This document shows positions 37,136 to 47,152 of a stretch of 47,152 nt of DNA, piece by piece. The stretch spans positions 1 through 47,152 of the forward strand of contig DVMW01000008.1 of the NCBI GenBank assembly GCA_018714805.1, written 5' to 3'. The stretch's first letter is position 1; the number at the start of each line of letters is the position of its first letter. Origin of the DNA: Candidatus Fimenecus excrementigallinarum (GTDB taxonomy: Bacteria; Bacillota; Clostridia; Oscillospirales; Acutalibacteraceae). The notes beneath the pieces were generated by a model, which was given only the letters and a program-made list of their open reading frames with translations, had not been told where the DNA came from and ran no database searches. Position numbers and translations under genes: made by a program.

Positions 37136-37184
37136 GCGCGTTTTCCGGCAACACTACCGGCAGAACACATTGCCGGAGGAAGAA

Positions 37185-38147
37185 ATGCAAAACAACGGGT
37201 TTACAAAGAAGGTCGCCGTGGTGGGTACGGGCTTTGTCGGGATGAGCTTCGCCTACGCGCTGCTGTGCGACGGCGCGTGCGACGAGCTGGTGCTTTTGGA
37301 CATTGACCGGGAAAAGGCCGTCGGCGAAGCGATGGATTTGAACCACGGGCTTGCCTTTGCCAAAACGAACATGAATATAACCGCCGGGGAATACAGGGAC
37401 TGCGCCGACGCGGACATTGTGGTCATCTGCGCGGGCGTTTCGCAAAAGCCCGGCGAGGACCGCATCTCGCTTTTGCAGCGCAACCGCAAGGTGTTTGAAA
37501 GCATTGTCGAGCCTGTGCTCGCCTCCGGCTTTGACGGCATTTTTCTGGTCGCCACGAACCCGGTGGACATCATGACGCGCGTCGTCTACCGCCTGTCCGG
37601 CTTTTCAAGCGGACGGGTGATTGGCTCGGGCACGACGCTCGACACCGCGCGGCTGCGGTACCTGCTCGGCGCCTATTTCACGGTCGACCCGAAAAACGTG
37701 CACGCCTATGTCATCGGGGAGCACGGCGACAGCGAAATGACGCCGTGGTCGCAGGCGCTTGTGGGCACAAAACCAATCCGCGACATCGTTGCCGGGCAGC
37801 CGGACCGCTTCTCGCTGGAGGCGCTCGACCGCATCGCCGCAGACGTTACGAACGCCGCCTACCGGATTATCCGGGCGAAAAACGCGACGTATTACGGCAT
37901 CGGCCTTGCGCTTGTGCGGATTGTCAAGGCCATTTTCGGCGGGGAAAACAGCGTGCTGACCGTTTCCGCGAAGCTCTGCGGGGAATACGGCGTGCAAGAC
38001 GTGTTCGCGGGCGTACCGTGTATCTTGGGCCGCGAGGGCGTGCGCGGCGTTTTGACCCTGGAGCTCGAGCCCCACGAAATGGAGCGGTTCCGGGCCTCCT
38101 GCCGGCTGCTGGACCGGATTTGGAAAGACTCGTTTTCGGAAAAATAA
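37185..38147 (+). CDS. ldh: L-lactate dehydrogenase
   Basis: Reduces pyruvate to L-lactate with NADH. 320 residues, the family length. The NAD-binding loop is G14-T-G-F-V-G19, the acidic end of strand 2 is LLDIDREKA, the substrate loop is KPGEDRISLLQRN, the active-site histidine is in GEHGDSE, and NPVDIMT is conserved. Gln in the substrate loop region (VSQKPGEDR) supports lactate rather than malate dehydrogenase. ATG 37185 follows GGAGG. No Rex-like operator is visible before it. It converges on the hydrogenase operon across a bidirectional terminator. Confidence 0.95.
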   Translation: MQNNGFTKKVAVVGTGFVGMSFAYALLCDGACDELVLLDIDREKAVGEAMDLNHGLAFAKTNMNITAGEYRDCADADIVVICAGVSQKPGEDRISLLQRNRKVFESIVEPVLASGFDGIFLVATNPVDIMTRVVYRLSGFSSGRVIGSGTTLDTARLRYLLGAYFTVDPKNVHAYVIGEHGDSEMTPWSQALVGTKPIRDIVAGQPDRFSLEALDRIAADVTNAAYRIIRAKNATYYGIGLALVRIVKAIFGGENSVLTVSAKLCGEYGVQDVFAGVPCILGREGVRGVLTLELEPHEMERFRASCRLLDRIWKDSFSEK

Positions 38148-38150
38148 AAT

Positions 38151-38185
38151 CCGGGTCCGTACAAGGTACGGACCCGGTCTTTTTT
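38151..38185. terminator. Bidirectional terminator between ldh and the hydrogenase operon
   Basis: Perfect 12-bp stem CCGGGTCCGTAC/GTACGGACCCGG around AAG, flanked by TCTTTTTT on plus and by ATTTTATTTT on minus. Confidence 0.92.
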
Positions 38186-38194
38186 GGAAGCGCG

Positions 38195-39643
38195 TTATTG
38201 CAGCATACGGATAGCGTCGGAAATGGTCTTTTCCATCGCCTCGCGGCCGTATTTGTCGACCTCGTTTTTGTCGCGCGCCTCATGCGTCAGGCAGCCCGCG
38301 CCGCCGATGCACCCGCCGACGCAAGCCATGCCTTCGATAAAGTTGTTCGGCAGCACCCCTTTGGACGCTTTGAGAAGCGCCAGACGGCATTCCTCAATCC
38401 CGTCGCAGGCGATGGGCTTATAGTCTAAGTCAATCTCCTGCTCCTTGAGCGCCTGCTCCACGGCGTCGCGCAGACCGCCGCTGCGCGCGAAAATCCGGCC
38501 GTAGTAGGAGGCGTTGTCGAGCGCTTCCTCGGGCAGCGACGAAAAATCGATGTCGCGGCTGTCAAACAGCGCCTGCAGCTCTTCAAAGGTCAGCACGGAA
38601 TCCACAATGGGCTTCACGCGCTCCAGCCCTATCTCCTGCTTTTTCGCCGTGCAGGGGCCGATGAATACGATTTTGCAGTCCGGCTCGTTGTCGCGGATAT
38701 ACTTCGCAATCGTCGCCATGGGCGAAAGGTTGTGCGAAATGTGTTCGGCAAGCTGCGGGAAGCTTTTGCGGATATAGGCGACGAAGGCCGGGCAGCAGGA
38801 GCTGGTCAGGAAGCCTTTTTCCGAAAGCTCCTTGGCCTCGGCATAAGCGACCATGTCCGCGCCGAGCGCCGCTTCGACGACGCTGTGGAAGCCGAGCTTT
38901 TTGATGGCGGCGACGACCTGGCCGAGCTTTGCGTAGGTGAACTGGCTCGCAATCGACGGCGCGACAATCGCGTAGGTCTTGTACGCCGTGTTGTTTTGGC
39001 TCTTTTTCAGGATGTTGATAACGTCGAGGATATACGACTTGTCGGCAATCGCGCCGAAGGGGCACATATATTCGCACGCGCCGCAGGCGATGCACTTGTC
39101 ATTGTCGATGTGCGCGGCGCGCATCTCGTCATTTTTCATGGAGATGGCCTTGACCTTGCAGGCGCGCTCGCACGGGCGCACATAGTTGGAAATGGCCGAA
39201 TACGGGCAGACCTTGGCGCACGCGCCGCAGTTGACGCATTTGGTCTTGTCGATATGCGCCTTCTGGTTTTCGTCAAACGTAATCGCGTCGCGCGGGCAGA
39301 CGTCCTCGCAACGGTGCGCGATGCACCCGCGGCAGTCCTGCGAGACCTGGTAGCCGCTCGCCGGGCATTCGTCGCAGGCAATCTCGATGACCTCAATGAC
39401 ATTGGGATTGCTCTTATCCCCGCCGCACGCCATTTTAATGCGCTCGGCAATGATGGCGCGTTCTTTATAGATGCAGCAGCGCATGGTCGCCTTCGGCCCG
39501 GGGGCCACAACCTTGGCGATGTCGTTGAAGCTGTTGGCAAGCTGGAACTCGTCGCCGTCAAACGCAATCCGCGCGACCTCCCGCAGGACCTTGTATTTCA
39601 GGTACTGCACCTTGGTGTCAAATTTTCGTCCTTCTTTTCCCAT
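38195..39643 (-). CDS. [FeFe] hydrogenase, group B type
   Basis: 482 residues. The N-terminal ferredoxin part carries several clusters: C104-x2-C107...C112-x3-C116, C136-x2-C-x2-C-x3-C146, and C184-x2-C-x2-C-x3-C194. The H-cluster domain has all three loops: T280-S-S-C-C-P285, P330-C331-T-A-K-K335 and M439-A-C441-V-G-G-C445. Val replaces the usual Pro of MACPGGC and there is no HydA-type N-terminal [2Fe-2S] domain, which fits group B, ferredoxin-linked H2 production. ATG 39643 follows AAGGAG. It is the last gene of the rex operon, 11 bp after the phosphatase gene. The maturases HydEFG are not in this window. Confidence 0.92.
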   Translation of the reverse strand: MGKEGRKFDTKVQYLKYKVLREVARIAFDGDEFQLANSFNDIAKVVAPGPKATMRCCIYKERAIIAERIKMACGGDKSNPNVIEVIEIACDECPASGYQVSQDCRGCIAHRCEDVCPRDAITFDENQKAHIDKTKCVNCGACAKVCPYSAISNYVRPCERACKVKAISMKNDEMRAAHIDNDKCIACGACEYMCPFGAIADKSYILDVINILKKSQNNTAYKTYAIVAPSIASQFTYAKLGQVVAAIKKLGFHSVVEAALGADMVAYAEAKELSEKGFLTSSCCPAFVAYIRKSFPQLAEHISHNLSPMATIAKYIRDNEPDCKIVFIGPCTAKKQEIGLERVKPIVDSVLTFEELQALFDSRDIDFSSLPEEALDNASYYGRIFARSGGLRDAVEQALKEQEIDLDYKPIACDGIEECRLALLKASKGVLPNNFIEGMACVGGCIGGAGCLTHEARDKNEVDKYGREAMEKTISDAIRMLQ

Positions 39644-39654
39644 TCCGGTACTCC

Positions 39655-40827
39655 TTAAAAATAGCTGACCTTCACCCGTTTCCCGAGCGTCTTGAGCCGC
39701 TCGGACAGTTCCTCGACCAAATGCATTTTGATGTTGAAGGTAATGGGCAGGTCGGGGTTCTGGTGCGCGGGATTGATGGCGCGCCCGACAAAGAAATTGA
39801 CGTCGGTCGCCTCCTCTAACAGCATCCGCGCGATGCGCGAGGCGCCGTCCTCCTTGACGTTCCAGTCGGCGTATACATTGTCCGTCTCCCCATAGCTGTT
39901 CGCGTATTCCAGCACGCGGCTCATCGTAATGACGCCCTCGGTGCAGAGGTCAACGCCCTCGAGCTTCGCAATGGGCGGAATATCGGGGTCGATGTAGTCC
40001 AGCTGGGTTTCCACCGGCTTGCCCAAATATTCCCCCGCGAGCGTAGAGGTTGTCCCGCCGCTGACGATGTGCTTGCCGCCTCTCGAGAAAAACAGGCGCA
40101 TCATCTTTTGGACGTCCTGCGGATTGCTCGGCGGCCCGAACAGCAGGTTGACGGTCATGCGCCGCCGGATTTTGACGGTACAGACGGTCGTGTCGTCCCC
40201 GGGCTTCCCGCCGTAAAGCCGGCAGCACTCATCCAAAAGCAGCGAGGAAACGGTTTTGGCCGTGAAGTCCGGCCGGACCATTTTTTCGAGGAATTCCACT
40301 ATCTCCTCGCGCTGCCAGCCGAAATTCATCGACGTGCCGACGCCCGCCCAAATGGCGCCGTCGCTGGTAAACACAAGAAAATCATTCTCTTGCAGGGCCA
40401 GCTTCGTTTTGTAAATCGTCTTGCCGTCGATTTTCGTCTCGGTCTGGGGATAGTCAAAGCTTTTGCCGTCGCGCAGCAGGATAAGCTTCGGGTTATCATA
40501 TTGTATAATTTCCGCCTCGCGGTTGTCAAGAGTTCGGACGATGGTAAATGTAGAATATGCGACTTTTCGCACTTCGCAGATGGGCAGGGTTGCGGCAATC
40601 GTATCCACGCAGGATTCCAGGCTCATGCCGTTGGCAACCATGGTGGAAATGATGGTCGACGTCAGCGTCGAAAGGATGCTCGCCTTCACGCCGCTGCCAA
40701 GGCCGTCCGCCAGCACGACGACGTGGTCGTTGTCGCTTTGGTCAATGACCTCCACGTGGTCGCCGCAGAGCTGCTCGCCGAACTTGTTGACGCTCATATA
40801 GCCGATGTCGGTGCAAAGGTCATTCAT
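39655..40827 (-). CDS. SpoIIE / PP2C-type serine phosphatase
   Basis: 390 residues. The PP2C-like core (about 1-225) shows the acidic metal sites: CGDHVEVI, LADGLGSGVKAS, SDGAIWAGVG and GDDTTVCTVKI. The C-terminal 165 residues (VNLLFGPPSNPQDVQKMMRLF...) form a second domain I cannot assign; it is common behind PP2C domains in hydrogenase operons. No transmembrane segment. The start overlaps the end of hydS by eight bases, so the phosphatase is coupled to the H2 sensor and is its likely output partner. Confidence 0.88.
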   Translation of the reverse strand: MNDLCTDIGYMSVNKFGEQLCGDHVEVIDQSDNDHVVVLADGLGSGVKASILSTLTSTIISTMVANGMSLESCVDTIAATLPICEVRKVAYSTFTIVRTLDNREAEIIQYDNPKLILLRDGKSFDYPQTETKIDGKTIYKTKLALQENDFLVFTSDGAIWAGVGTSMNFGWQREEIVEFLEKMVRPDFTAKTVSSLLLDECCRLYGGKPGDDTTVCTVKIRRRMTVNLLFGPPSNPQDVQKMMRLFFSRGGKHIVSGGTTSTLAGEYLGKPVETQLDYIDPDIPPIAKLEGVDLCTEGVITMSRVLEYANSYGETDNVYADWNVKEDGASRIARMLLEEATDVNFFVGRAINPAHQNPDLPITFNIKMHLVEELSERLKTLGKRVKVSYF

Positions 40828-42508
40828 CTTTGAGCGACTCCTTCAAATGGGTCAGCGCGATTTTGGTTTCCGCCGTCGTCTCGCCCAGAAGCGAGGCAAT
40901 CTCCTGGACGATGCGCATCTGCTTTTCGATGACCTTGTCCGTCACCTCAATCGTCTGGCGGCTCATTTCCTCTTTCCGGGCCTTTTCCTTTTCCTCGGCG
41001 GTGATGTCGCGCATAATGCACATTAAAATGTGGTACTGCCGGTCGTAGATGATGGTCTCTTCCACATATTTGTCATACTCGGCAAGATACACGCGCTTGT
41101 CGTGAATCCCGATGCCGCCGGAAAGCACCTCGATAAAATCAAACGGCTCCAGGATACGCACGACCGGCTCGCCGAGCACGTCGTTCTGGCTGCGGATATT
41201 GAGGATATCGCGCGCGGCGGCGTTTATCTGCTGGATTTCCATGTCCTCGTTGAGAATCAGGATGCCGTTCGGCGTGTTCTGGATGATGGTATCGGAAAAC
41301 GTTTCCGCCTTTTCCTTGAGGTACGGCAGGCACATGGAAAGCTCCGCCTTGCCGTCGAGCACGGCCTGCGCCTTTTCGCGGCAGGTGTTGTACCCGCACG
41401 ACCCGCAGTTGAGCTCGTCCTCGGGGCGGATTTTGCCCATTTTGCGCAGGATTTCTTCTATCGCACGGCTGCCTGCGCGCGGCTTTTCCTTTTTGAGGAA
41501 CGGCAGCTCCTTTTGCAGCGCGGCGCTGTCCGGCTGTTCAACCGGGAAATCGGCGCCGCCGGCCTGCTTTGCATACTTTTCGACCGCCAGATACCCCTGC
41601 ACGGGCGCGCGGTGGGAATGGCGCATGGTCGGCCCCCCGATGCAGCTGCCCGGGCACGCCGACATTTCGATAAAGCAGTTGTGGATGTTGCCGTTTATCA
41701 CGTCTTCAATGGCGTTGATGCAGGCGGACATACCGTCCACCGCAAGATAGCTGTACTGCGGGTTGTCGCAGCGCATGGATTTGAGGATGCCGCCCGCTGT
41801 CGGGAAAAAGCGCGTCTTCCCCTGCGGCTCGCCGTCCTCGGGCAGGGACTCGGGAACAACGCCCGCTTCCTCGAACCAGGCGTCCAGCTCCTCAAAGGTC
41901 AGCACGCAGTCCACAATCCCGGGGTACGCCTCCCCTTCCGCCTTTTTCGAGATGCACGGACCCACAAAGACCGTTTTGGCGCCGGGGTGCTCGCGCTTGA
42001 GCTCTGCGCAGTGCGCCTGCATGGGCGACTGGACCTTGGCGAGAAAGGGAAGCGCCTCGGTAAAATGCTTTTGGATAAGCAAATTGACCGTGTGGCAGCA
42101 GGTGGCGATGATAACGTCCTGCTCGCCGGCGTCCGCCATGCGGTCATATTCGTTTTTGACCATTGTGGCGCCGACGGCGGTCTCCTCTGCGCCGGCAAAC
42201 CCAAGCTGCATCAACGCTTTGCGCATCCCCGCAATGCCGACGCCCTCGTAGTTTGCGGCGAACGAAGGCGCGAGACTCACATAAACGGGCGCGTCGCCCG
42301 CCAAAAGGGCTTTGGCGGACGGCACGTCGTTTCGAATCTCTTTTGCATTTTGCGGACAGGCGACGAAGCACATCCCGCACAGAACACACTCATCCTCGAT
42401 GATTTGCGCCTGCGAGCCCGAAAAGCTGATGGATTTCACCGGGCAGTTACGGATGCACTTGTAGCAGTTTTTGCAGTTGGACTTCTTCAGGTGGATATAA
42501 TTGGACAT
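40820..42508 (-). CDS. hydS: Sensory [FeFe] hydrogenase with PAS domain (HydS, group C)
   Basis: 562 residues. Two [4Fe-4S] motifs (C12, C15, C18, C22 and C41, C44, C47, C51) precede the H-cluster domain: loop 1 T136-C-C-H139, loop 2 P184-C185-I-S-K-K189, loop 3 M282-S-A-C285-P-G-S-C289. The TCCH form and the diverged loop 3 are typical of group C, sensory rather than catalytic, enzymes. An extra Fe-S motif follows (C368-x2-C371-x4-C376...C393), then a PAS domain (about 400-505, NTPNGILILNEDMEIQQINAAARDIL) and a C-terminal coiled coil (about 510-562). H2 oxidation is thought to alter the PAS output. ATG 42508 follows GGGGGAG. The gene overlaps the phosphatase gene. Confidence 0.93.
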   Translation of the reverse strand: MSNYIHLKKSNCKNCYKCIRNCPVKSISFSGSQAQIIEDECVLCGMCFVACPQNAKEIRNDVPSAKALLAGDAPVYVSLAPSFAANYEGVGIAGMRKALMQLGFAGAEETAVGATMVKNEYDRMADAGEQDVIIATCCHTVNLLIQKHFTEALPFLAKVQSPMQAHCAELKREHPGAKTVFVGPCISKKAEGEAYPGIVDCVLTFEELDAWFEEAGVVPESLPEDGEPQGKTRFFPTAGGILKSMRCDNPQYSYLAVDGMSACINAIEDVINGNIHNCFIEMSACPGSCIGGPTMRHSHRAPVQGYLAVEKYAKQAGGADFPVEQPDSAALQKELPFLKKEKPRAGSRAIEEILRKMGKIRPEDELNCGSCGYNTCREKAQAVLDGKAELSMCLPYLKEKAETFSDTIIQNTPNGILILNEDMEIQQINAAARDILNIRSQNDVLGEPVVRILEPFDFIEVLSGGIGIHDKRVYLAEYDKYVEETIIYDRQYHILMCIMRDITAEEKEKARKEEMSRQTIEVTDKVIEKQMRIVQEIASLLGETTAETKIALTHLKESLKDE

Positions 42509-42571
42509 ATCGCTCCCCCGTTTCCGTCTGCAAATTTTAAAGCTGCCGGGCTTTTTCTCAAAGCCCGTTTT

Positions 42572-42814
42572 TCAGGCAAGTTTTGCCAGCACGTTCTCCT
42601 TGAAAAAGTCGTCGACCGTTTCGGGCGAAACGGAAAACAGCACGTCGTCCACCGTGACGGACACGCCGTTGCGGCAGTTGCCCATGCAGAATTTCCCGCT
42701 GAGCTCGACCTTTTCCTTCAAACCGTTTTCCGCCACAAGCTGCTGCAGCCGCTCCACGACGGCGCGCGAGCCCTTCAGGTGGCAGGAACTGCCGATACAG
42801 ACTGTTACTTTCAT
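42572..42814 (-). CDS. [2Fe-2S] thioredoxin-like ferredoxin
   Basis: 80 residues. A stand-alone NuoE-C/HydC-like thioredoxin-fold ferredoxin with the cluster ligands in C6-IGSS-C11 and C43-MGN-C47. It resembles the small [2Fe-2S] subunits that accompany NAD-linked hydrogenases. Here it sits between the kinase-like gene and hydS, so it may deliver electrons to or from HydS (inference). ATG 42814 follows AAAGGAGAGG. Confidence 0.9.
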   Translation of the reverse strand: MKVTVCIGSSCHLKGSRAVVERLQQLVAENGLKEKVELSGKFCMGNCRNGVSVTVDDVLFSVSPETVDDFFKENVLAKLA

Positions 42815-42845
42815 TGCGAAGCCTCTCCTTTACCCTGCGGCAGCC

Positions 42846-43595
42846 TTATTCGTAATCGACGACGTCAAGCCACTTCATCAACAGCTCTTTTTCCTCGGGG
42901 TTGCGCTTGACGCTCTGCGAGGCGGCGACAATGGGCAGCCATTTCTGGACGTACTGCTTGGCGGTGTCGCTCTTTTTGCAGAACAGGTTCAGATACTTTT
43001 CCGCAAGCGCCGACTCGCCCTTGAGCGAAAACACAAGGTAGGTGCGCGCCGCATCGGCGGAGGCGTTGCCCTGGGTGACGTGCGCCCAGTCGATGATATA
43101 GTTCACGCCGTCGTCGCCGATGATGATGTTGCTCGGGCGGAAGTCGCCGTGGCAGACCTTGTTGTGCTTGGGCATACCCTCCAGGCGGGTGTGCAGCTCG
43201 TAGCGCGTGGTCGCGTCGAGGTCGGTCTCGTCAATCTTGCGGTTCATCTTGTCCTTGAGCTTGTTGAGCAGCGGCGCCTTCTGGTTGTGGATGCGCAGCT
43301 GGATTTCGACGAACAAATCGAGGTATTCGTCCTCTTTTTCCGGGTGCTCCTCCATAAGCTGGGCGAGCGTTTTGCCCTGGATGAACTCGGAGGCGATGGC
43401 CCATTTGCCGTCAATCACGCCGACCTCTAAAAGCTTCGGCACGGGCAGCCCCGTTTCCTCGGCGCGGGCCTGGTTGAGCGCTTCGTTTAAGATGTCGGAC
43501 TTTTTGTAGCCCTCGTCAAACACCTTCACAGCGCGGTCGCCGTCGCGGTAAACGGTCTTTGCGGTGCGGACCGCGATAACCTTTTCCAGTTTCAT
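42846..43595 (-). CDS. APH-fold kinase (aminoglycoside phosphotransferase / Ser-Thr kinase-like)
   Basis: 249 residues. The N-lobe nucleotide region holds the lysine of DRAVKVFDEGY; the catalytic loop is HGDFRPSNIII (Asp as base, Asn as Mg ligand) and the metal-binding acid is in YIIDWAHV, here DWAH rather than DFG. This is the fold of APH, choline and fructosamine kinases. The position in a redox operon with a PP2C-type phosphatase argues for a regulatory protein kinase rather than antibiotic resistance; the substrate is unproven. ATG 43595 follows GGAGGAG. It is 12 bp from adhE and 31 bp from the ferredoxin gene. Confidence 0.85.
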   Translation of the reverse strand: MKLEKVIAVRTAKTVYRDGDRAVKVFDEGYKKSDILNEALNQARAEETGLPVPKLLEVGVIDGKWAIASEFIQGKTLAQLMEEHPEKEDEYLDLFVEIQLRIHNQKAPLLNKLKDKMNRKIDETDLDATTRYELHTRLEGMPKHNKVCHGDFRPSNIIIGDDGVNYIIDWAHVTQGNASADAARTYLVFSLKGESALAEKYLNLFCKKSDTAKQYVQKWLPIVAASQSVKRNPEEKELLMKWLDVVDYE

Positions 43596-43607
43596 TTCTG
43601 CTCCTCC

Positions 43608-46217
43608 TTATTCACCGTAATAGGCTTTCAGATACATTTCCTTGAGCTCTTTCATCAGCGGATAGCGCGGGTTCGCGCCGGTGCACTGGTCGTTGAACGC
43701 CTGCTCGACCATTTCGTCCAGGGTGTCGAGGAAGTATTTCTCGTCCACGCCGTAGTCGCGGATGGTCTTTTTCACGCCGCAATGCGCCTTGAGTTCGTCG
43801 ACCTTCGCGATAAGGCCCTCGAGCTTTTCTTCGTCGGTCTTGCCCGTCACGCCAAGCGCGTCGGCAACCTCAGCGTAGCGCGCAAGGGTGTGCGGGTGGT
43901 CATACTGCGGGAAGGTGCCCATCTTGGTGGGAACCTCCGCCGCGTTGTAGCGCAGGACATGGTCGATAAGCAGCGCGTTGGCAATGCCGTGCGGCAGGTG
44001 GTGGAACGCGCCGAGCTTGTGCGCCATGGAGTGGCACACGCCCAGGAAGGCGTTCGCGAACGCCATACCGGCCATGGTGGCGGCGTTGCCCATTTTTTCA
44101 CGTGCGACGGGGTCGTTCGGGCCGTTGTCATAGGCGCGCGGCAGGTACTGGAAAATCATTTGCAGCGCGCGGATGGCCAGGCCGTCGGTGTAGTCGGTCG
44201 CCATGACGGAGGCGTACGCTTCCAGCGCGTGCGTCACCGCGTCAATGCCGGAGGCGGCCGTCAGCCCTTTCGGCGCGCTCATCATAAGGTCGGCGTCGAC
44301 AATCGCCATGTTGGGCATGAGCTGGTAGTCGGCAAGCGGCCATTTCACGCCGGTCTCGGCGTCGGTGATAATCGCGAACGGCGTGACCTCGGAGCCCGTG
44401 CCCGCAGAGGTCGGGACGGCGATGAAATACGCCTTTTCGCCCATTTTCGGGAAGGTATACACACGCTTGCGGATGTCCATGAAGTCCATGGCCATGTCGG
44501 AGAAGTCGACGTCCGGATGCTCGTACATGACCCACATAATCTTTGCCGCGTCCATGGCGGAGCCGCCGCCGACGGCGATGATGGTGTCGGGCTCGAACTG
44601 GCGCATCTGGTCGGTGCCCTTTTCGGCGCACTGCAGCGTCGGGTCGGGCGCGACTTCATAGAAGCAGGTGTGCTGAATGCCCATTTCGTCGAGCTTTTCC
44701 TCGATGGGCTTCGTGTAGCCGTTGTTGTAAAGGAAGGAGTCGGTCACGATGAACGCCTTTTTCTTGCCGAGCACGTTTTTCAGCTCGTCAAGCGCAACGG
44801 GCAGGCAGCCCTTTTTGAAATACACCTTTTCAGGCGCGCGGAACCACAGCATATTTTCCCTTCTCTCGGCAACAGTCTTGATGTTCAGCAGGTGCTTGAC
44901 GCCGACGTTCTCGGAAACCGAGTTGCCGCCCCAGGAGCCGCAGCCCAAGGTCAGCGACGGCGCGAGCTTGAAGTTGTAAAGGTCGCCGATGCCGCCCTGC
45001 GAGGAGGGGGTGTTGACAAGCACACGGCAGGTCTTCATGCGTTCGCCGAAGCGCGCGAGCTTCTCTTTTTCGGTGACGGCGTTGAGATACACCGAGGAGG
45101 TGTGGCCGTAGCCGCCGTCCGCGATAAGGTGGTCCGCCTTATCCATGGCGTCGTCAAAGCCCTTCGCCTTGTACATGGCAAGCACGGGCGAAAGCTTTTC
45201 GTGCGCAAACTCCTCGGAGATGTCGACGCTCTCGACCTCGCCGATGAGAATCTTGGTCGTTTCGGGAACGGTCACGCCCGCGAGCGCCGCAATCTTGTAA
45301 GCCGGCTGGCCGACAATCTTGGCGTTGAGCGCACCGTTGATGATGATGGTCTTGCGGACCTTTTCAATCTCCGCCTTTTTGAGGAAATAGCAGCCGCGGC
45401 GGGTGAATTCGTCCTTGACCTGCTTATAGACCTTGTCGAGCACGATAACGGACTGCTCGGACGCGCAAATCATGCCGTTGTCGAAGGTCTTGGAATGGAT
45501 AATCGAGTTGACGGCGAGCAGGATGTCGGCGGTGTCGTCGATAATCGCCGGCGTGTTGCCCGCGCCGACGCCCAGCGCCGGTTTGCCGGAGGAATAAGCT
45601 GATTTTACCATACCCGGGCCGCCCGTGGCAAGGATAATATCGGCTTCCTTCATCAAAAGCGTCGTCATTTCCAGCGACGGGATGTCAATCCAGGCGATGA
45701 TGTCCTCGGGCGCGCCCGCCGCCACAGCGGCCTCCAGCACGACCTTGGCCGCGGCGATGGTCGATTTTTTCGCGCGCGGGTGGGGGCTGATGATGATGCC
45801 GTTGCGGGTCTTTAAGGAAATCAGGGTCTTGAAAATCGCGGTGGACGTCGGGTTCGTGGTCGGAATGACCGCCGCGATAACGCCGATGGGCTCGGCGACG
45901 CGCTTAATCCCAAAGGCGGGGTCCTCGTCCACAACGCCGCAGGTCTTGGTGTCCTTATACGCGTTGTAGATATACTCGGCGGCGTAGTGGTTCTTGATGA
46001 CCTTATCCTCCACAACGCCCATGCCGGTCTCCTCGACCGCCATTTTCGCAAGCGGGATGCGCTGCTTGTTGGCGGCGATAGCGGCGGCGCGGAAAATGGC
46101 GTCGACCTGTTCTTGGGTATAGGTCGAAAAAGCCTCCTGCGCCTTGCGGACCCGTTTGAGCGCTGCTTCGAGCTTCTCGACCGAGTCCACCACTTCATAC
46201 GTCCTCGTGTTTTCCAT
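43608..46217 (-). CDS. adhE: Bifunctional acetaldehyde-CoA / alcohol dehydrogenase
   Basis: 869 residues, the usual AdhE length. The N-terminal aldehyde dehydrogenase half (about 1-440) has the catalytic cysteine in FDNGMICASEQSVIV and the NAD site GGPGMVKSAY. The C-terminal iron alcohol dehydrogenase half (about 460-869) has GGGSAMDAAK and the Fe ligand region GVCHSMAHKLGAFHHLPHG. It reduces acetyl-CoA to ethanol, oxidising two NADH, and forms spirosomes in other bacteria. ATG 46217 follows AAAGGAG. It lies 15 bp downstream of rex and is the classical Rex target. Confidence 0.97.
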   Translation of the reverse strand: MENTRTYEVVDSVEKLEAALKRVRKAQEAFSTYTQEQVDAIFRAAAIAANKQRIPLAKMAVEETGMGVVEDKVIKNHYAAEYIYNAYKDTKTCGVVDEDPAFGIKRVAEPIGVIAAVIPTTNPTSTAIFKTLISLKTRNGIIISPHPRAKKSTIAAAKVVLEAAVAAGAPEDIIAWIDIPSLEMTTLLMKEADIILATGGPGMVKSAYSSGKPALGVGAGNTPAIIDDTADILLAVNSIIHSKTFDNGMICASEQSVIVLDKVYKQVKDEFTRRGCYFLKKAEIEKVRKTIIINGALNAKIVGQPAYKIAALAGVTVPETTKILIGEVESVDISEEFAHEKLSPVLAMYKAKGFDDAMDKADHLIADGGYGHTSSVYLNAVTEKEKLARFGERMKTCRVLVNTPSSQGGIGDLYNFKLAPSLTLGCGSWGGNSVSENVGVKHLLNIKTVAERRENMLWFRAPEKVYFKKGCLPVALDELKNVLGKKKAFIVTDSFLYNNGYTKPIEEKLDEMGIQHTCFYEVAPDPTLQCAEKGTDQMRQFEPDTIIAVGGGSAMDAAKIMWVMYEHPDVDFSDMAMDFMDIRKRVYTFPKMGEKAYFIAVPTSAGTGSEVTPFAIITDAETGVKWPLADYQLMPNMAIVDADLMMSAPKGLTAASGIDAVTHALEAYASVMATDYTDGLAIRALQMIFQYLPRAYDNGPNDPVAREKMGNAATMAGMAFANAFLGVCHSMAHKLGAFHHLPHGIANALLIDHVLRYNAAEVPTKMGTFPQYDHPHTLARYAEVADALGVTGKTDEEKLEGLIAKVDELKAHCGVKKTIRDYGVDEKYFLDTLDEMVEQAFNDQCTGANPRYPLMKELKEMYLKAYYGE

Positions 46218-46232
46218 GTGTACCGTACTCCT

Positions 46233-46901
46233 TTACCGAATTTGCATGGATGCCTGTAACGACTGTTTCAAATGGGCGGACAGCACCGCCAGAGACGACG
46301 CGATATTTTCGTTTTGCAAAAGCACCCCGTCGGGGACCCGCAGGCGGACGGGCGCGAAATTCCAAACGGCGCGCACCCCGCCCTCCACGAGCATATCGCA
46401 AACCTCCTGCGCGCTTTCGGCGGGCACGGTGATAATCCCGATGTGCACGCCCATGCGCCGGCAGAGGTCCGTCAGCTTGCTGACCGGCAGAATTTTCGGC
46501 GCGCCGCGGATATACGGCGCGGTCTCGTCGGCCTCCCGGTCAAAGGCGGCGACCAGCCGGATGCCGAACTGCGCGAACCCCTCGTACCCGAGCAGCGCGC
46601 GTCCGAGCTTCCCGGCGCCCACAAGCACCGCCTCGTTGACGCTGTCATAGCCGAGGAAGGCTTCGATGTCCCGCACAAGGCGGGCGACCTCGAACCCCGT
46701 TTTCGGCTTGCCCGCACAGGAACTGACGGCGGCGAGGTCCTTGCGGACCTGGACCTCGTTAAGCCCCAGCGCCGCGGCGAGCTTCGGCGCGGAAATGCGC
46801 GCGTCGCCGGCGGGCAGGCGCTTGAGAAAGTCGAGATACACGGGCAGCCGCAGCAGCGTCTGCCGCGATACGCTGCGAACGCCGGACCGGACTTGCGCCA
46901 T
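46233..46901 (-). CDS. rex: Redox-sensing transcriptional repressor Rex
   Basis: 222 residues. The N-terminal winged helix (about 10-80; SRQTLLRLPVYLDFLKRLP, LGLNEVQVRKDLA) precedes a Rossmann domain that senses NADH/NAD+ (VLVGAGKLGRALLGY, then VAAFDRE with the acidic residue for NAD ribose). The C-terminal helix for domain swapping is present. Rex represses fermentation genes when NADH is low and leaves DNA when NADH is high. ATG 46901 follows AGGGGG; the frame is open further upstream into the promoter. It is the first gene of its operon and is preceded by two Rex-like operators, so it autoregulates. Confidence 0.95.
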   Translation of the reverse strand: MAQVRSGVRSVSRQTLLRLPVYLDFLKRLPAGDARISAPKLAAALGLNEVQVRKDLAAVSSCAGKPKTGFEVARLVRDIEAFLGYDSVNEAVLVGAGKLGRALLGYEGFAQFGIRLVAAFDREADETAPYIRGAPKILPVSKLTDLCRRMGVHIGIITVPAESAQEVCDMLVEGGVRAVWNFAPVRLRVPDGVLLQNENIASSLAVLSAHLKQSLQASMQIR

Positions 46902-46937
46902 GGCTCTGCCCCCTATCAGTAATCCTGTATTGATTGT

Positions 46938-46966
46938 ATGATAGCGCACGGCGGCGGCGTTGTCAA
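46938..46966 (-). promoter_or_regulatory. Promoter of the rex-adhE-hydrogenase operon
   Basis: Minus strand: TTGACA at 46961-46966, a 17-bp spacer and TATCAT at 46938-46943. Confidence 0.85.
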
Positions 46967-46973
46967 TGGAAAT

Positions 46974-46991
46974 TTGTTAATTTTTTAACAT
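46974..46991. promoter_or_regulatory. Rex operator 1
   Basis: TTGTTAATTTTTTAACAT matches the clostridial Rex site TTGTTAA-N4-TTAACAA at all but the last base. It ends seven bases upstream of the -35 box. Confidence 0.85.
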
Positions 46992-47000
46992 CTGTTTCCC

Positions 47001-47018
47001 TTGACAATTTTTTAACAG
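47001..47018. promoter_or_regulatory. Rex operator 2 (degenerate)
   Basis: TTGACAATTTTTTAACAG has one good half-site and the same N4 spacing, 27 bp from operator 1, which puts it two to three helical turns away. Confidence 0.55.
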
Positions 47019-47073
47019 AGCCGGGCGCGCTTTTGTGCAGATTTACGGAGCAAGCCGCGCGGAAAAATAACCA

Positions 47074-47120
47074 GCCAGGGGACGGTTCTGTGTCGAAACG
47101 ACAAAGAACCGTCCCCTGGC
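47074..47120. repeat. Long palindromic intergenic repeat (GGGGACGGTTCT type)
   Basis: Arms 47074-47095 and 47099-47120 are inverted copies of 22 bp with one mismatch and a 3-nt AAA loop; core GGGGACGGTTCT...AGAACCGTCCCC. This palindrome type recurs in intergenic regions of many Clostridia, from memory. It is not followed by a T-run. Confidence 0.85.
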
Positions 47121-47124
47121 AGAT

Positions 47125-47152
47125 ATTCAGAGTTCAGAAATCAGATGTCAGA
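47125..47152. repeat. Four tandem 7-nt units NNTCAGA at the window edge
   Basis: Units ATTCAGA, GTTCAGA, AATCAGA and TGTCAGA follow one another without gaps and run to the last base, so the array may continue outside the window. Confidence 0.75.

Follow-up and report, generated by a model that had tools for sequence, protein, structure and literature searches.

Gene linkage around a Rex-associated hydS locus points to different partners for its kinase and its phosphatase

When a kinase and a phosphatase are encoded in the same block as a putative hydrogen sensor, do they form a single signalling relay or serve different partners? The question is raised by seven genes of Candidatus Fimenecus excrementigallinarum that lie towards one end of the DNA analysed here, hereafter called the window (positions 1-47152, the complete contig DVMW01000008.1; the genome amounts to 1.87 Mb in 49 contigs). 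All seven are on the minus strand and encode, in order, Rex, AdhE, an APH-fold kinase, a [2Fe-2S] protein, HydS, a SpoIIE/PP2C phosphatase and a group B hydrogenase, with intergenic gaps of 15, 12, 31, 63, -8 and 11 bp. An original prediction made from the sequence had this order, direction and spacing (-8 to 63 bp) right at every coordinate, and proposed that the kinase and the phosphatase together relay the signal of HydS. The distribution of the genes weakens that proposal, the kinase following adhE instead. Judged from gene distribution and neighbourhood, the kinase probably belongs with the ethanol enzyme and the phosphatase with the hydrogen sensor, and one relay is unlikely. The reading that I favour, if only slightly, is a Rex-controlled fermentation operon of two modules, rex-adhE-kinase and ferredoxin-hydS-PP2C-hydrogenase.

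The linkage of each gene was assessed in a class-level sample of 243 genomes at least 90% complete. HydS is present in 78 of them (a count that includes five genomes with only a sigma-54 fusion type, see below), the PP2C in 73, the kinase, scored at E 1e-40, in 55 (25 family handles) and type-I AdhE in 76; type-I AdhE comprises rows of at least 63% identity, rows of 53% or less and the partials G248 and G313 being omitted and the partial G318 kept, and the G129 kinase and the G132 PP2C, each in two pieces, were counted once. Type-I adhE is found in 53 of the 55 kinase genomes (2 with the kinase only, 23 with AdhE only; Fisher p 1.4e-32). Of the 59 kinase matches, 50 have a same-strand adhE no more than 400 bp away, 49 of them being directly downstream of it, and 29 of these 50 are in genomes without HydS; the adjacency is seen in 23 of the 25 family handles (exceptions f32 and f49). 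The association of the kinase with HydS is weak (25 genomes shared, p 0.02), with 53 of 78 HydS genomes having no kinase match and 30 of 55 kinase genomes no HydS match, and within type-I AdhE genomes the two are independent (counts 23, 30, 8 and 15; p 0.61). PP2C of this type occurs in 72 of the 78 HydS genomes as against 1 of the 165 others. Of the six HydS genomes without it, five carry no HydS other than the sigma-54 fusion; in the sixth, G235, a divergent PP2C stands beside hydS. A PP2C lies within 200 bp of 69 of 84 HydS matches, overlapping in 28 of the 69, so that overlap is less common in this wider sample than in the named loci described below. Kinase and PP2C share 25 genomes, 30 having the kinase only and 48 the PP2C only, a weak positive association (p 0.007) that falls short of the co-occurrence expected of a signalling pair.

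In a nearer set of 98 genomes (PP2C counted at E <=1e-20, seven weaker genomes of an E 1e-10 search being omitted), the kinase occurs in 39 and HydS in 38. Nine genomes have the kinase without HydS: eight have adhE followed by the kinase gene (adhE-kin), among them G011, on a 3.9-kb contig that ends after the ferredoxin gene (fdx), and the ninth has rex-kin-hydB, hydB being the group B hydrogenase gene. HydS and PP2C mismatch in three genomes, two at contig ends (G008, G026) and one with a divergent neighbour (G067). In locus L214 the order is rex-fdx-hydS-pp2c-hydB-adhE-kin, and since adhE-kin stands there at the opposite end of the cassette, the pair appears to have moved as a unit.

Gene order was followed in named genomes, in which at least 566 HydS relatives were confirmed and 80 loci kept. 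The 80 were found with patterns that include the C-terminal tail motif of HydS and are thus biased towards the tail; A1 is free of this bias. Gene calls in the loci come from a simple script that takes the longest frame, starts and small genes being approximate, and duplicated records (L101 and L147, L111 and L132, L065 and L145; none among the 80) were removed wherever loci are called distinct. The PP2C gene is the next gene in 77 of the 78 named loci with a called downstream gene, and the two genes overlap by 8 bp in 68. Upstream of hydS, a small ferredoxin is found no more than 700 bp away in 70 of 76 loci, and 63 of 74 have a group B-like hydrogenase within three genes of hydS. The kinase lies within 2 kb of hydS in 38 of the 66 with enough upstream DNA. 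Where the upstream DNA exceeds 5.5 kb (46 loci), adhE, kinase and rex are all present in 17 and all absent from 12. Recurrence of this order, or of one very like it, in so many genomes takes the block far beyond chance. Thermoclostridium caenicola DSM 19027 (L108), with adhE-kin-fdx-fdx-hydS-pp2c-hydB, is akin to the window; it differs in its two ferredoxins and in a 314-residue gene product encoded before adhE, with no rex called there.

The first module opens with rex (46233..46949, probable start ATG 46901), which encodes an NADH/NAD+-sensing repressor (NCBIfam NF003994, 261 bits for a cut-off of 130), followed by adhE (43608..46217), which encodes a bifunctional acetaldehyde-CoA/alcohol dehydrogenase (NF010378, 1410 bits, cut-off 951). 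The kinase gene that tracks adhE (42846..43595) matches Pfam APH (61.2 bits, cut-off 23.2). Its residues K24, H149-G150-D151, N156 and D169, invariant in 17 homologues, supply the catalytic Lys, the HGDxxxxN motif and the second Asp that I take to mark an active APH-fold kinase. Profile matches to solved structures are weak, partial and mixed, choline kinase 4r77 being the best (E 1.6e-6), followed by StkP, APH and MAP kinases. Its genomic company makes the kinase a candidate partner of AdhE. A literature search of partial coverage found no title on an AdhE-linked kinase among those listed, and the print record may hold one.

The second module begins with the gene for a thioredoxin-like [2Fe-2S] ferredoxin (42572..42814; Pfam 2Fe-2S_thioredx, 32.0 bits, cut-off 24.8), whose four Cys are invariant in 20 homologues. 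The original prediction took this gene for an addition beside HydS, and the named loci show it to be the usual upstream neighbour of hydS. Among 151 small ferredoxins, duplicates included, the window copy groups with the 104 first-or-only copies, while the other 47 make up a second type (support 0.91 for 46 of them, midpoint-rooted, the opposite side of the split being unsupported); the window is without the second small ferredoxin that many relatives carry. A division into kinase-side and hydS-side ferredoxin types was considered and rejected, since the first-or-only copy occurs both with and without the kinase.

hydS itself (40820..42508) encodes a putative H2-sensing [FeFe] hydrogenase in which Pfam, homologue alignment and a structural model delimit Fer4, H-domain, FeS (PF04060) and PAS domains. 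The H-domain scores 149 bits (PF02906), with the H-cluster residues C138, C185, C285 and C289 invariant in 17 homologues, and the PAS domain 25.4 bits (PF00989, cut-off 22.6). By homology, it is the H-cluster domain that should bind H2, while the PAS domain would relay the signal, at odds with the proposal that HydS senses H2 through its PAS domain. Aligned with solved hydrogenases, HydS retains the loop-1 tandem CC; the Met preceding the loop-2 Cys is replaced by Gly and the loop-3 Met by Ser. As far as the available text of PMC8163306 describes it, Thermotoga maritima HydS (group C) likewise has an H-domain, an extra FeS cluster and a PAS domain, and the Gly and Ser at the framing-Met positions match its description; the tandem CC is kept in the window HydS, whereas the proton-transfer Cys is said there not to be conserved in M2e/M2f. 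The protein ends in a two-helix tail (residues 503-562, 40823..41002, minus strand), delimited by homologue alignment and the model, in which residues 519-557 are invariant at 23 of 39 positions as against 137 of 562 overall (17 homologues). The model, of predicted local distance difference test (pLDDT) score 72.5 and low in the first 58 residues, renders the tail as two helices, the first of them long, joined by a turn. An interpretation of the tail as a histidine-kinase two-helix hairpin was set aside, the likeness being by eye only and Pfam listing no HisKA-type match. The same genome has a second HydS-like hydrogenase frame of 471 residues (G000:C29:45766-46992; L003, L130), probably not long enough to hold a complete PAS domain and the tail.

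The PP2C gene (39655..40827) starts within the end of hydS, overlapping it by 8 bp. Its first letters are ATGAAT in 94 of 114 distinct loci showing this overlap, a conservation that suggests translational coupling of the two genes. The product matches Pfam SpoIIE (55.2 bits, cut-off 25), and in its model (pLDDT 84.9) the phosphatase domain is nearest to SpoIIE structure 5mqh (E 1e-15). The likeness to SpoIIE is confined to this domain, the SpoIIE equivalog TIGR02865 scoring 48 bits for a cut-off of 490.8. The last 165 residues are highly conserved and form, by homologue alignment and model, a C-terminal domain (about residues 226-390; 39658..40152, minus strand) for which three homologues gave no Pfam match even at E 5; a profile search returned only phosphoheptose isomerase 3trj, weakly (E 0.11), and the 50 Foldseek matches listed for the protein were all PP2C-type, none identifying this domain. 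The block closes with the gene for a group B monomeric [FeFe] hydrogenase (38195..39643; TIGR04105, 563 bits, above the curated cut-off of 450). Curated NCBIfam cut-offs (Rex, AdhE, hydrogenase) and Pfam cut-offs (the other four) thus confirm all seven gene identities originally assigned.

The output side of HydS is not always a PP2C. In nine more distant HydS-like proteins an [FeFe] hydrogenase domain continues in one chain into a sigma-54 AAA+ activator (L201:2246-4888, L202:3099-5732, L203:4645-7275, L204:3357-5600, L205:3408-6041, L206:2888-5506, L207:336-2954, L208:2590-5235, L209:4242-6974). At E 1e-8, six have a helix-turn-helix domain, seven FeS and four PAS, and none of the nine adjoins a PP2C. 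This exchange of a sigma-54 domain for PP2C speaks for the hydrogenase-FeS-PAS part as a sensory input module whose outputs can be exchanged, and by their domain content the fusions look like one-piece H2-responsive transcription activators; a literature search on [FeFe] hydrogenase-sigma-54 fusions found no title on them among those listed. The HydS of the window fits HydDB group C3 in its H-cluster, PAS domain and linked Ser/Thr phosphatase, a fit judged from the features in the HydDB table. In the part of the source available (PMC5037454), C3 is named "phosphatase-linked (putative)", its role is listed as undetermined, and the group C types in the table are histidine-kinase, chemotaxis and phosphatase.

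How is the block controlled? An operator-like palindrome, ATGTTAAAAAATTAACAA (46974..46991, minus strand), agrees at 13 of 14 specified positions, with one mismatch, with TTGTTAANNNNTTAACAA, which I take to be the Rex consensus and used for operator scoring, and a sigma-70-like promoter, TTGACA-17-TATCAT (46938..46966, minus strand; -35 and -10 matching at 11 of 12), lies just downstream of it. A comparable operator plus TTGACA is present in four genus relatives. This genome has three one-mismatch sites, the block's site among them, and 7 sites at up to two mismatches versus 3 in a reversed control. Scanning 300 bp upstream and 60 bp of the first gene, an operator with up to two mismatches was found in 19 of 44 distinct rex- or adhE-first loci as against 2 of 44 reversed (p 3e-5), and in 30 of all 96 distinct loci as against 2 reversed; coding-sequence controls for the rex/adhE loci gave 0 of 46, duplicates still included. 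Ferredoxin-first loci carry an operator in 8 of 29 cases (control, 0 of 29), which makes it probable that Rex often governs an H2 module that lacks adhE. With a Rex-type repressor encoded and a predicted operator at the promoter, the block qualifies by sequence as part of a Rex regulon, and the proposed gating of the operon by Rex is probable, the operator adjoining the promoter and recurring in relatives.

The contig, which ends at 47152, extends 203 bp beyond the annotated start of rex, and the next gene upstream lies outside the window. Close to this end (47078-47116) stands an inverted repeat of some 39 bp, with one exact copy in the assembly; it is possibly a collapsed mobile repeat. In 25 loci (L038, L045, L049, L055, L058, L062 and 19 more) an unlabelled same-strand gene encoding 303-316 residues lies upstream of rex/adhE; six sequences of these 25 loci were read and are LysR-like by eye, and the gene may be an additional regulator of the operon in relatives. 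The genus loci with DNA beyond rex (L137, L139, L141, L142) showed no such gene there.

The limits of the transcript are less clear than those of the block. A hairpin scan found a strong, bidirectional intrinsic-terminator-like hairpin (38151..38177) that the block shares with a convergent ldh. This LDH-family gene (37170-38147) recurs in or beside the hydS cassette in L078, L098, L103, L110, L112, L118, L133 and L135, and lactate, a third electron outlet, seems to be repeatedly drawn to the hydS locus. Within the block there are minus-strand promoter-like matches (e.g. 45631-45602, 42561-42534 and 40529-40500), and on both strands of 37500-47152 such sites number 12 for 3.0 expected, so the single promoter of the original prediction is not established. 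The ferredoxin-hydS gap contains a hairpin with an 8-pair stem (42547..42567) whose T-run is on the plus strand only in the window and on the operon strand in some genus relatives: of eight relatives, L138, L140 and L141 satisfy the terminator rule, L137 and L139 have a similar hairpin by eye, and L117, L136 and L142 have no terminator-like hairpin in this gap. Across loci, terminator-like hairpins are found at 8 of 65 kinase-ferredoxin and 7 of 100 ferredoxin-hydS junctions versus 6 of 324 at five other junction types (p 0.0005), shuffled controls giving 1 of 165 and 2 of 324, respectively. When distinct loci with gaps of at least 20 bp are compared, the figures become 15 of 80 at the seam and 4 of 64 elsewhere (p 0.045), a modest enrichment only, since gaps outside the seam are often shorter and room accounts for part of the difference. 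Because terminator-like hairpins separate kinase from hydS in a minority of the relatives, neither a single transcript nor the one terminator of the original prediction is established, and the kinase-hydS seam might be a site of transcript attenuation.

Built on the gene content, the linkage of the modules across genomes, the operator sequence, the overlap and the conserved tail, the two-module model would operate as follows. Rex, predicted to bind the operator, would be released at high NADH and open the promoter. AdhE would make ethanol, with the kinase as its dedicated partner, probably acting on AdhE or on a metabolite of the AdhE reaction as putative substrate. In the second module, H2 would bind at the HydS H-cluster and electrons would pass through the HydS Fe-S clusters, perhaps via the small [2Fe-2S] protein; the PAS domain would then change the conserved two-helix tail, which would switch PP2C by a predicted contact, and PP2C would dephosphorylate some Ser/Thr target, this step being as conditional as any phosphorylation by the kinase. 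The group B hydrogenase would serve as the H2 outlet.

The operon belongs to a known kind, and the useful result is that kinase and phosphatase seem to have different partners; the comparisons that follow use the parts of the cited papers that were available. In Clostridium thermocellum, Cthe_0422-0430 are annotated as rex, adhE, APH, hypothetical, Fe-S protein, SpoIIE, 24 kDa NADH dehydrogenase subunit and Fe-only hydrogenase, and go down together after furfural (PMC3848806). By locus number, the order rex, adhE, APH, small protein, Fe-S protein, SpoIIE is that of the window, homology being taken from annotation only; unlike in the window, the hydrogenase part includes a NuoE-like gene and an Fe-only hydrogenase. 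The likeness to Ruminococcus albus 7 that the original prediction drew for this block is upheld by the gene content as described: the eight-gene hydA2-hydS cluster shares a putative sensory hydrogenase, an AdhE-type enzyme, a hydrogenase and a phosphatase, and is 111-fold down in H2-consuming co-culture (PMC6776011). The hydrogenase class differs, group A1 in R. albus and group B here. According to PMC5707799, Zheng et al. (2014) proposed a route from HydS through PAS to an adjacent Ser/Thr kinase. In Thermoanaerobacterium hfsABCD, HfsB is a PAS hydrogenase, HfsC serine phosphatase-like and HfsD a hydrogenase, an order that matches the second module, in a four-gene operon that unlike the window is described without adhE or rex (PMC11837493); HfsA as the counterpart of the [2Fe-2S] protein is a positional guess. 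Deletion of hfsA or hfsB raises the adhE transcript two- to threefold and ethanol with it, and raises NADH-dependent alcohol dehydrogenase (ADH) activity but not aldehyde dehydrogenase activity, for which the authors consider post-transcriptional control possible (PMC5707799). Related literature, likewise available in part, includes PMC10055695, PMC12578642, PMC10084766 and PMC12456013.

Several points weigh against the two-module reading. The genomes are related and few candidates were scored per genome, so that the p-values given above measure strength and not independent trials. Neighbourhood is linkage and not function; the adjacency of adhE and the kinase could be mere co-expression, and both modules lie in one short-gapped stretch here, where cross-talk between them may occur. 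The kinase is missing from 23 of 76 type-I AdhE genomes, and 9 of 59 kinase matches are not beside adhE, four of these being beside hydS; by eye, those of the nine that were fetched have no recurrent neighbour. A comparison of 60 kinase-linked with 20 unlinked AdhE sequences gave no clear phosphosite, the best being S334 (93% vs 40%). The HydS model is weak, as its pLDDT indicates. In the available part of PMC5707799, deletion of hfsC (the phosphatase) or hfsD causes no significant change in adhE, an argument against PP2C being the only way of reaching adhE, and deletion of hfsA also lowers hfsB-D, so its effect is possibly polar. Finally, the signs of the effects differ, the R. albus cluster being down in co-culture (PMC6776011) and adhE up on loss of hfsB (PMC5707799).

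Other explanations assign these proteins differently. Were the kinase and PP2C an antagonistic pair acting on one substrate, with the balance set by HydS, their encoding in the same block and the presence of the kinase no more than 2 kb from hydS in 38 of the 66 named loci with enough upstream DNA would be accounted for; the many genomes with one of HydS and kinase and not the other, and the independence of the two among type-I adhE genomes, make this unlikely. A stronger contender, possible but still held below even, is that the APH-fold protein is a small-molecule kinase, engaged for example in metabolite repair or salvage around AdhE, and not a protein kinase: choline kinase leads its structure matches, with StkP and MAP kinases lower, and the AdhE comparison yielded no phosphosite, yet short partial protein-kinase matches exist too and the adhE linkage goes unexplained as long as no substrate is named.

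The phosphatase and the sensor have alternatives of their own. That the PP2C acts like SpoIIE or RsbU, freeing a sigma factor via a STAS protein, would agree with the structural nearness of its phosphatase domain to 5mqh and with two STAS matches in the genome, one of which is, by eye, beside small ATPase-like and sigma-like frames; Pfam finds no STAS or anti-sigma gene among the seven, the equivalog score is far below its cut-off and the C-terminal domain differs, and I consider this the least probable of the explanations. Only a little more credible is HydS as nothing but a slow ancillary hydrogenase in an operon governed by Rex alone. The near-perfect operator, the alignment of the HydS tandem CC with the corresponding Cys of catalytic hydrogenases and the unchanged adhE expression reported on hfsC deletion all fit it, while the PAS domain with its invariant tail, the strict linkage to PP2C, the sigma-54 fusions of relatives and the hfsB deletion phenotypes (PMC5707799) speak against it.

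Gut and biofuel clostridia choose between ethanol, acetate and H2 according to how they read H2 and NADH, and the available text of PMC5707799 and PMC13277313 leaves the path from HydS/HfsB to adhE open. A split between AdhE-kinase and HydS-PP2C alters the choice of useful experiments: it puts forward Cthe_0424, the APH gene next to adhE in C. thermocellum, as a candidate cause of the unexplained change in ADH activity, and singles out PP2C as the conserved partner of HydS. I would tentatively go further, with rather less confidence than in the two modules themselves, and suggest that the kinase may be a dedicated AdhE kinase, exerting a widespread post-translational or metabolite-level control of ethanol formation in clostridia that would be independent of the H2 sensor, which would act only via its own PP2C with its hitherto undescribed C-terminal domain.

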